Positions 39,047 through 40,505 of a DNA stretch of 64,000 nt are shown here, piece after piece. The position numbers were made by a program, and so were the translations under genes. Position 1 is the first letter of the stretch. The number at the start of each line of letters is the position of its first letter. Under the pieces are notes generated by a model. That model did not search any database. It saw only the letters and a list, made by a program, of their open reading frames with translations, and was not told the DNA's origin. Source of the stretch: Nocardioides sp. ChNu-153 (GTDB taxonomy: Bacteria; Actinomycetota; Actinomycetes; Propionibacteriales; Nocardioidaceae); assembly GCF_030466625.1 (NCBI RefSeq), contig NZ_JADEVT010000001.1, forward strand, positions 682,001-746,000. Direction: 5' to 3'.

Positions 39047-39202
39047 GTGGTTTCGAGGGGCGCTGGCGCGCCCACCTCAACCACCGGAGCGCAGACCGCC
39101 GACCTCGTGCGGGCGTGGTTTCGAGGGCCGCTGGCGCGCCCACCTCGACCAGCGCTGGCGCGCCCACCTCGACCACCGCTGACGCGCCCACCTCAACCAC
39201 CG
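39047..39202. repeat. right flank repeats of the 13E12 element (four copies)
   Basis: A full 40-bp unit (39047-39086), a near-full unit (39115-39151) and two truncated units (39152-39178, 39179-39202), all beginning or centred on GAGGG-CGCTGGCGCGCC-CACCTC. Orientation is opposite to the left flank. Together with the stretch to 39287 this is the only gene-free region over 300 bp; the part 38944-39046 shows nothing beyond a locally AT-richer segment (38981-39010). Confidence 0.8.
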
Positions 39203-39275
39203 ACCGGGCGCGGCGGACCCGCGCCGTACCGTCCACCATGTGACCACGCGGGCGACCGCGTCGGGGCGCCTCTGC

Positions 39276-39281
39276 TACGAA
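39276..39281 (+). promoter_or_regulatory. extended -10 of the Cys-leader operon
   Basis: TGC-TACGAA-T: an extended -10, six bases before the leader-peptide ATG 39288. It makes the leader peptide leaderless. Confidence 0.5.
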
Positions 39282-39287
39282 TGACCC

Positions 39288-39398
39288 ATGTCCTCCCACG
39301 GTCTCGCGGTCGCGACGCACGACGCCGTCTGGCGTCTGCACGTCGACCTCCGCCTGACCGCCAGCGCCCTGTGTCGCTGCCGTCGCTGCTCGCTCTGA
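39288..39398 (+). CDS. Cys-rich leader peptide (cysteine attenuator)
   Basis: 36 codons, too short for a usual gene call: begins MSSHGLAVATHD and ends ALCRCRRCSL-stop. Three Cys codons (TGT, TGC, TGC) lie within the last eight. Leaderless start; stops 106 bases before a cysteine dioxygenase gene. Cys-ending leaderless small ORFs are known in mycobacteria as cysteine-responsive attenuators (Ms5788A/Ms4533A-type families). Here stalling on scarce Cys-tRNA, or free passage when cysteine is plentiful, would set expression of cysteine breakdown genes. The sign of control cannot be read from sequence. Confidence 0.75.
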   Translation: MSSHGLAVATHDAVWRLHVDLRLTASALCRCRRCSL

Positions 39399-39411
39399 GA
39401 CCGACCACCAC

Positions 39412-39485
39412 GCCCGCACCGCGGGCCGTCGCCGCGCCAGCGCGCGGCTGAGCACCCGGCACGACCGAGGCCCGGACCACCGGGC
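39412..39485 (+). promoter_or_regulatory. leader hairpins between Cys peptide and cysteine dioxygenase
   Basis: Two perfect stem-loops: GCCCGC-ACC-GCGGGC (39412-39426), starting 13 bases after the leader stop, and GCCCGG-ACCA-CCGGGC (39470-39485), just before the AGGA (39494-39497) of the next gene. GCCGCGCCAGCGCGCGG between them can also fold. The two GCCCG arms could swap partners, giving an attenuator or ribosome-site switch. Confidence 0.5.
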
Positions 39486-39504
39486 GACACCCCAGGACGC
39501 CACC

Positions 39505-40005
39505 ATGACGCTGCAGAACATCCGCCGTACCGACGGACCGGCCCGCGAGACCCCGGCCGGGCTCGCGGTGCTGCCCCTCCTCCAGACGCTCCGCGAGATC
39601 GCCGCGGACCCCGACCTCCACGAGCTGGTCGACCTCACCCACCCCGACCGGCAGTCGCTCGAGCTGCACGCGACGCCCGAGCTGCAGGTGTGGCTGCTGA
39701 CGTGGCCACCCGGGTTCTCGACGGGCTGGCACGACCACGCCGGCTCGCGCGGCGCCTACGCCACCCTGCGGGGTCGGCTGACCGAGCACACGTGGGAGCT
39801 CGGCACCCCCTCGGCCTGGCACGTCGGGCGCGGCGAGGCCCGCGCGTACGCCGGCGGTCACGTGCACACGGTGCGCAACGAGACGGGTACGACGGCACTG
39901 TCGGTCCACGCGTACGCGCCGAAGCTGACCGCGATGACGCGCTACGAGGAGCGCGGCGGGCGCCTGTCCGTGGTCGGCGTCGAGCAGGCGGGGGTGCAGC
40001 TGTGA
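39505..40005 (+). CDS. cysteine dioxygenase
   Basis: 166 residues, bacterial type I CDO. Cupin iron ligands His76 and His78 (WHDHAG) and His121 (HVHTV); the second-sphere SVHAYAP holds His135 and Tyr137. The Cys that crosslinks to the Tyr in animals is Gly here (SRGAY), as in other bacterial enzymes. Oxidises cysteine to cysteine sulfinate with O2. AGGA seven bases before ATG. Controlled by the Cys leader upstream; its stop overlaps the next start (GTGA). Confidence 0.93.
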   Translation: MTLQNIRRTDGPARETPAGLAVLPLLQTLREIAADPDLHELVDLTHPDRQSLELHATPELQVWLLTWPPGFSTGWHDHAGSRGAYATLRGRLTEHTWELGTPSAWHVGRGEARAYAGGHVHTVRNETGTTALSVHAYAPKLTAMTRYEERGGRLSVVGVEQAGVQL

Positions 40006-40505
40006 GCGCCCCGGCCATCGAGACCTGGTACGCGACTGCCGCGACCTCCGCGACCACCCGCACCACCACGCCCCGCACGCCGGCGGCGCCGGCCGGCCCC
40101 CGCTTCGAGGAGGTCTGGTTCGACGGTGTCGACGACATGCTGGCGGAGGCGCGGGCCCGGCTGCACCGCCTGAGCCCGCGGGCGGCGTACCAGTCCGTGC
40201 TGTGGCGCCGGGCGCTGATCGTCGACATCCGTCCCGAGCGGACCCGCCGCGAGCAGGGCGAGGTCGACCCGCGCCTGCGTCCGGTCGTCGTCGAGCGGGT
40301 CGACCTGGAGTGGCTGCTCGACCCGCGCAGCCCGCAGCGCCTGCCGGAGGCGGACTACGACCTCGCGGTGGTGGTGCTGGACGCCCACGGCACGACCTCG
40401 TCGCTGGCGGCCGAGTCGCTGCAGCGCCTGGGCCTCCACGACGCCACCGACGTGGTCGGCGGCTTCGCGGCCTGGCGGGGTCAGGGGATGCCGACCGTCT
40501 CCTGA
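40002..40505 (+). CDS. rhodanese-fold protein lacking the catalytic Cys
   Basis: 167 residues from GTG. Rhodanese landmarks are present: LIVDIRPE near 72, the P-loop-like LDAHGTTSSLAAESLQRLG near 126-144, and VVGGFAAWRGQG near the end. The active-site loop normally begins with the persulfide Cys; here the position is Asp127, and the whole protein contains no cysteine. Co-translated with cysteine dioxygenase, as in many actinomycetes. It may bind a sulfur metabolite or the dioxygenase instead of transferring sulfur. Last 25 bases overlap the convergent acyltransferase gene. Confidence 0.85.
   Translation: MSAPAIETWYATAATSATTRTTTPRTPAAPAGPRFEEVWFDGVDDMLAEARARLHRLSPRAAYQSVLWRRALIVDIRPERTRREQGEVDPRLRPVVVERVDLEWLLDPRSPQRLPEADYDLAVVVLDAHGTTSSLAAESLQRLGLHDATDVVGGFAAWRGQGMPTVS

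Follow-up and report, generated by a model that had tools for sequence, protein, structure and literature searches.

Leaderless short ORFs with poly-Cys ends are said to act as attenuators in mycobacteria, a description credited to Canestrari in 2020. That work is discussed in three further papers (PMC13236596, PMC9031893 and PMC9094748), which describe Cys leaders that act by attenuation in Mycobacterium smegmatis (PMC9031893, PMC13236596) and leader stalling that can unmask a Shine–Dalgarno sequence (SD) (PMC13236596). A Cys leader before cysA2 in mycobacteria was reported by Shell (2015; PMC4633059), and Cys leaders of cys operons in Mycobacterium and P. acnes, and of cbs in B. longum, by Seliverstov (2005; PMC1262725).

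The locus described here lies in a 64 000 nt stretch of Nocardioides sp. ChNu-153 DNA (the window). It resembles the mycobacterial poly-Cys attenuators in its predicted leaderless-type start, its terminal Cys codons and the sulfur gene downstream, but its target is a thiol dioxygenase together with a degenerate rhodanese, its three Cys codons are spaced (CRCRRC) rather than contiguous, and masking of the SD was not found in the window by fold prediction. With the leaders of Seliverstov (2005), as described in the passages compared, it shares Cys codons near the stop and the lack of a conserved terminator, whereas the target genes given there are others and no dioxygenase is named among them. 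A search of open-licence literature, covering titles and the beginnings of abstracts, returned no Cys leader before a dioxygenase. The leader in the window most likely belongs to the known kind of cysteine leader, with a dioxygenase target that the literature search did not find, and with that target the kind now reaches into several actinobacterial families, Nocardioidaceae and Streptomycetaceae among them. Two observations are new: the constancy of TGT at one Cys codon of the leader motif, and ergothioneine dioxygenases as the closest solved structures to the downstream enzyme.

The leader ORF and its promoter

The leader ORF (39288–39398, forward strand, as are all features given below) consists of 36 codons plus stop (ATG at 39288, stop codon at 39396–39398) and encodes the peptide MSSHGLAVATHDAVWRLHVDLRLTASALCRCRRCSL. 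An extended −10 element, TGCTACGAA (39273–39281), lies six bases 5′ of the ATG, and TGGTAGGAA is found at the matching place in Nocardioides zeae (locus L065) and N. alkalitolerans (L066), so that all three carry a TG-n-TASGAA element 6–7 bases 5′ of the leader start. A strict sigma-70 scan at the leader promoter found nothing. As judged from the sequence, the start in the window is probably leaderless. In 20 of 21 Streptomycetaceae leaders we found TTGAC plus a T-nnnn-T hexamer ending 5–7 nt 5′ of the start codon; these hexamers at promoter spacing, so close to the start, are as expected for leaderless transcripts. Near its end the ORF carries the conserved motif HVDLx7C (39339–39374), which closes with the Cys codon TGT (39372–39374) and is followed by two further Cys codons, both TGC (39378–39380 and 39387–39389), giving three Cys codons within the last eight. 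The initial annotation of this DNA had described a 36-codon ORF with a Cys-rich end six bases past an extended −10, as the sequence confirms; its reading of the ORF as a leaderless-type Cys-codon leader in the mycobacterial style is supported by the Cys ends found before related dioxygenase genes.

Directly upstream of the leader promoter there is a 24-bp tandem repeat, CCGCTGGCGCGCCCACCTCGACCA, with 3.1 copies at 39128–39202 and an extra copy of its core at 39063; the 16-base core has four matches in the window with at most one mismatch, against 0.02 expected. A AAGTCNATYGACTTA-like element, placed by eye between −35 and −10, occurs in the promoters of poly-Cys leaders (L068, L070–L072 and L074–L079, including the fused leader of L079) and is possibly a second control site.

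Conservation of the leader and codon choice

Related dioxygenase loci (the best 80 of 91 candidates) were collected, and in 74 of them the 300 bases upstream were scanned blind. L111, L130, L135 and L137 were left out of the locus counts because the match fell close to the end of a contig or had a different offset (L135 nevertheless shows a leader), and the 74-locus scan also omits L099 and L143. The closest named loci among these best 80 are those of N. zeae (L065, 81%) and N. alkalitolerans (L066, 68%). At 47 of the 74 loci a short ORF had two or more Cys among its final 10 residues, whereas the reverse strand gave 10 of 74 and six dinucleotide shuffles of the same loci gave 7.5 on average (range 5–11); with at least three Cys the count was 20 loci against none on the reverse strand and 0.8 in shuffles. 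No comparable excess was seen at the 74 loci for His, Trp, Met, Tyr, Phe, Gln, Asn or Lys, the largest being Phe with 5 against 1 and 1.2. Conservation of the terminal Cys codons among relatives was the check that the initial annotation had set for its own proposal, and the Cys-ending short ORFs at 47 of 74 related genes bear it out. Because it is conserved, the leader in the window is, on the sequence comparisons, real and beyond chance.

Counted by motif, a Cys leader is present at 50 of 77 loci, the window included; short Cys-bearing ORFs at L092, L096, L105, L108, L110, L118, L138 and L140 are excluded from this count. Thirty-seven loci, again with the window, belong to an HxDx-x7-C class (HVDL, HIDL or HLDL, and in a few cases HLDT or HLDY), while CCRCC-type ends are found in Nocardioides and Pimelobacter. 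The N. zeae leader, VLMLCRCCRRPR, keeps L-C-R-C and has no HxDL motif; leaders of differing sequence have mainly the Cys end in common. The leader of L004 (the same locus as L066) is 62% identical to that of the window. Within the genus the leader is patchy, occurring at four of the 12 same-genus loci L003–L014 (L003, L004, L005 and L006), and no motif leader was found at the more distant family loci L015–L032. Three loci (L005, L073 and L080) have two leaders in tandem. At L005, L073, L080, L084, L089 and L103 the leader frame ends within the dioxygenase gene and at L064 it is continuous with it. L079 is a natural fusion that joins the opening 16 codons of the leader in frame to the dioxygenase and has lost the Cys tract, which supports genuine use of the leader start.

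The motif was also recognized with profile models. An HMM made from 58 leader cores of other genera, with same-genus sequences excluded, scored the window motif RLHVDLxxTASALC at 29.3 bits, against 12.4 bits for the best of 2000 shuffles. A class-wide pattern search of 394 genomes gave 31 places in 29 genomes of 14 genera (window included) and a reversed control pattern gave no match in the genomes listed; a Streptomyces-type motif pattern matched in three of the 394. The NCBIfam model NF042934 (cis_reg_atten, ‘putative leader peptide’) shares the motif HxDLx7C and scored five of nine related leaders above its cut-off of 27 bits (L058, L060, L063, L107 and L112), but the leader in the window is not filed under this model: it gave no match and is not among the six matches in its genome at E up to 1. 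The L066 leader reached 18.6 bits, below the cut-off. Such sub-cut-off matches occur in six of 14 control genomes too, and weak matches therefore need context. A genome-wide poly-Cys pattern was discarded as a leader finder because it was uninformative (104 matches against 157 for the reversed control), and Rfam elements gave no match between 38000 and 42000 at E up to 1.

The Cys that closes the motif is encoded by TGT at 37 of 37 dioxygenase loci, at 31 of 31 places of the class-wide search (14 genera, many downstream gene families) and in all three Streptomyces-type matches, although each pattern allowed TGC; these sets have at least the window and L066 in common and their members are interrelated, so no probability is attached to them. 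Where a Cys stands two codons before the motif Cys it is TGC in 24 of 24 dioxygenase loci, and in one of the three Streptomyces-type matches this earlier Cys is TGT. Poly-Cys leaders mix the two codons (53 TGT, 18 TGC), and the long GC3-rich ORFs of these loci contain 90 TGT against 576 TGC, TGC being about six times commoner. One guess is that UGU serves as a slow wobble codon that sharpens sensing, RNA pairing being the alternative; TGT at the motif Cys amid ORFs that prefer TGC makes the sensing step testable by synonymous changes.

The dioxygenase operon and the genes behind other leaders

The sulfur gene directly downstream of the leader (39505–40005) encodes a CDO_I-family thiol dioxygenase of 166 aa without Cys (PF05995, E 2.6e-15; 56.8 bits against a curated cut-off of 23) and is followed by a gene for a rhodanese-like protein (40002–40505; PF00581, E 4.3e-7), which overlaps its end. 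The rhodanese-like protein contains no Cys, as initially remarked, and has an Asp (VVLDAHGTTSSLAA) in place of the loop Cys seen in many relatives; outside the window, this loss (LC changed to LD, in the loop preceding TSSLAA) was seen at no loci but L065 and L066. The predicted structure of the dioxygenase (mean pLDDT 85.6) is closest among solved structures to the ergothioneine dioxygenase of Thermocatellispora tengchongensis (PDB 8qfl to 8qfr; Z 19.3–20.6, 29–31% identity; top match 8qfo, Z 20.6), followed by the B. subtilis cysteine dioxygenase (Z 17.1, 25%). The T. tengchongensis enzyme is thus the nearest fold, and a common fold does not show the substrate. These nearest structures, together with the proposed sign of control (on at low cysteine), put the name in doubt, and the role suggested by ‘cysteine dioxygenase’, that of a free-cysteine oxidiser, is uncertain on the structural modelling. 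From the proposal of ‘cysteine breakdown’ the CDO_I domain stands and the breakdown role is what becomes uncertain; the likely sign of control hints at an enzyme that serves to gather sulfur and not to dispose of cysteine. A dioxygenase of a type commonly assigned to cysteine disposal would thus fall in a likely cysteine-starvation set, and its real substrate is a testable question. Lack of Cys in the dioxygenase was rejected as a sign of expression during starvation because it is equally common without leaders (22 of 26 loci, against 43 of 50 with a leader). The same genome contains a second CDO_I-type gene (G000:C1:95241-95600, L165), 36% identical to that of the window.

Genes downstream of the leader motif were compared at 30 loci of the class-wide search. 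The first plausible gene was chosen by codon composition and 27 of the 30 were scanned, the remaining three being those of the window and two same-genus dioxygenases. They comprise six ROK regulators, six FMN reductases, four CDO_I proteins, two each of TauD, NMT1-type binding protein, ABC permease and 2-oxoacid:ferredoxin oxidoreductase, and one each of rhodanese, luciferase-like monooxygenase, sulfatase, flavin reductase, periplasmic binding protein and no assignment. At the level of families, 13 of the 30 are typical of organosulfur metabolism (CDO_I, TauD, NMT1, permease, rhodanese, luciferase-like and sulfatase), a further seven are flavin reductases, and 10 are without a plain sulfur role (six ROK, two oxidoreductases, one binding protein and one unassigned). 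Two of the six ROK-led operons were read further and both carry TauD, NMT1 and permease genes next. The sulfonate names at L043 and L060 come from NCBI models that scored below their cut-offs. In genome G491 a leader precedes a permease most similar to SsuC, near which lies an alkanesulfonate-monooxygenase-like gene (scores below NCBI cut-offs), and another leader precedes a dioxygenase about 6 kb away. At L053 and L057 the Cys leader motif stands before 2-oxoacid:ferredoxin oxidoreductase genes, not sulfur-uptake genes.

Two of the six weak NF042934 matches in the genome of the window yielded sister leaders. One, VFTTLLTKRRAVDHCRVRSALCRPT (L163), precedes a DUF4395 gene and a rhodanese gene (a sulfurtransferase pair), and the other, MVTAATHAYLVVRRHVDLMRTRSMMCWPS (L164), a nitrite/sulfite reductase gene (NIR_SIR); in both the motif Cys is TGT. 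They also match the mycobacterial models Ms5788A (37.2 bits) and Ms4527A (21.8 bits), in each case short of the 45-bit cut-off; these are NCBI models of Cys-rich leaders separate from NF042934, and their names presumably refer to M. smegmatis genes.

Spacer RNA and control of the dioxygenase

A spacer of 106 nt separates leader and dioxygenase gene. The two hairpins with GCCCG arms that had been pointed out before the ribosome site of the dioxygenase are all present in the sequence: hairpin 1 (39412–39426) has arms GCCCG (39412) and CGGGC (39422), hairpin 2 (39470–39485) is GCCCGG-acca-CCGGGC (GCCCG at 39470, CGGGC at 39481) with no T run after it, and the SD, AGGA (39494–39497), precedes the ATG at 39505. 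Switching between these hairpins, also part of the initial annotation, was rejected: the 233-nt fold is within the range of shuffles (z = −1.45; 17 of 200 shuffles at least as stable), no terminator-like site was found at 39150–39560, hence no intrinsic terminator between leader and dioxygenase of the kind that defines a classical transcription attenuator, and in a three-way alignment with L065 and L066 the spacer of the window aligns poorly and shows no conserved hairpin arms.

Pairing between the Cys codons and the region of the SD gave a mixed picture. GTGTCGC around the first Cys codon (39371–39377) is complementary to GCGACAC (39484–39490) just 5′ of the SD, but the duplex of Cys region and pre-SD region in the window is no stronger than in shuffles (z −0.26). 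Over the leader loci the mean z for this duplex was −1.98 in 11 mixed loci, −0.77 in 12 Nocardioides poly-Cys loci and −0.20 in 27 Streptomycetaceae-type loci, against +0.07 and +0.18 for control segments; single loci gave −4.83 (L065), −4.28 (L073), −3.51 (L066) and −3.50 (L080). Opening the SD of the window is predicted to cost 2.4 kcal, a value equalled or exceeded by 74 of 100 shuffles. The leader segment raises this cost (at most 5 of 100 shuffles as high) at nine of 50 loci, namely L066, L084, L093, L103, L112, L113, L119, L120 and L143 (each with at most 4 of 100), and at none of the 12 in the Nocardioides poly-Cys group (mean z −0.42). A consensus structure of 16 Streptomycetaceae leaders is weak, with 21 pairs of which only two are changed on both sides and a covariation term of −0.73. 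From duplex energies and opening costs, masking of the SD was rejected as a general rule and accepted for some relatives only; its unmasking by a stalled ribosome is plausible in these models at the level of the family, and in the window fold prediction gives no signal for it.

Cells need their genes for the use of sulfonates, taurine, sulfate esters and sulfite when they run short of cysteine. The explanation we favour, and consider probable, is that the leaderless Cys leader senses cysteine and controls translation of the dioxygenase/rhodanese mRNA such that it is on at low cysteine. The terminal Cys codons of the 36-codon leader would do the sensing: when charged tRNA-Cys is short the ribosome would slow at the TGT and the two TGC codons and keep leader RNA off the region before the dioxygenase SD, so that dioxygenase is made, and when cysteine is plentiful the leader would be finished, the RNA would close and output would fall. 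The operon would then be part of a cysteine-starvation (sulfur-gathering) set to which the sulfurtransferase and sulfite-reductase-type operons in its genome also belong. In favour of this are the Cys-specific excess, the promoter geometry, the sister leaders, the organosulfur genes downstream, the duplex signal in close relatives, the L079 fusion, the mutual exclusion of leader and palindrome (see below) and published precedent. Against it, the SD of the window is not specially masked and masking is limited to nine of 50 loci; the Streptomycetaceae-type group lacks the duplex signal; conservation within the genus is patchy; 10 of 30 downstream genes are without a plain sulfur role; the leader in the window is unmatched by NF042934; and an enzyme that oxidised free cysteine would be wasteful to produce when cysteine is low.

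The initial annotation had suggested the opposite sign, in which ample cysteine would let the ribosome pass quickly through the leader and so switch on the dioxygenase for cysteine disposal. The CDO_I domain agrees with this, and leader frames that run past the dioxygenase start (L005, L073, L080, L084, L089 and L103) could in principle deliver ribosomes to it; at these loci and at L064, ribosomes that read through could block the dioxygenase start, which would again be on at low cysteine. Since the leader motif and the two sister leaders precede sulfur-acquisition genes, on at low cysteine is the simpler reading, and where pairing is predicted it hides the SD as long as no ribosome occupies the leader; from the sequences the ordinary logic is more likely, and we consider the opposite one, which these findings do not support, quite unlikely. 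Rather improbable, too, is transcription attenuation, most likely Rho-dependent, with leader translation deciding whether Rho stops transcription before the dioxygenase. Such a mechanism was proposed for terminator-less Cys leaders by Seliverstov (2005; PMC1262725), and the spacer in the window would accommodate it, but there is no terminator-like site in the window, and the six frame-overlap loci and the continuous frame of L064 leave Rho no spacer.

A nascent-peptide sensor, in which the HxDLx7C peptide causes the stall and UGU is a fixed, slow codon, as opposed to a plain shortage of tRNA-Cys, would explain why the motif and its spacing persist in front of unrelated genes and why the codons are so constant (TGT at 37 of 37 and 31 of 31 motif Cys, TGC at 24 of 24 two codons earlier). 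It fits poorly with the Cys tract of L065, the closest relative, which has no HxDL motif, with the motif-less poly-Cys class, which serves the same operon with TGT and TGC mixed 53 to 18, and with the further leader of three in which the earlier Cys is also TGT, and we think it unlikely. A broader proposal, doubtful as it stands, is that HxDLx7C with UGU as its last Cys codon is a single portable actinobacterial Cys sensor placed ahead of many unrelated sulfur operons, and the dioxygenase operon a starvation-time sulfur scavenger; here the fixed codon and spacing would point to a codon-specific stall assisted by the nascent peptide, beyond tRNA-Cys shortage alone. Lastly, the leader ORF might be translated or conserved for another reason (as a small protein, or because it overlaps a regulator site) and have no role in control. 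Some relatives do without a leader, ten of them with a palindrome instead, but the excess is specific to Cys among the nine residues tested and differing leaders share mainly their Cys end, which makes this very improbable.

The palindrome, of CAATGTAGAGTAA...ACATTG type, lies at the dioxygenase promoter of 10 of the 77 loci, none of which has a leader; leader (50 of 77) and palindrome are never found together and 17 loci have neither. It looks like a putative repressor operator, as if, to judge from these sequences, a DNA-binding regulator had taken over from the leader. It is built around AATGTAGAGTAA...TTACTCNACATTG in the leader-lacking Nocardioides loci L085, L086, L088, L090, L091, L094, L095, L097, L099 and L102.
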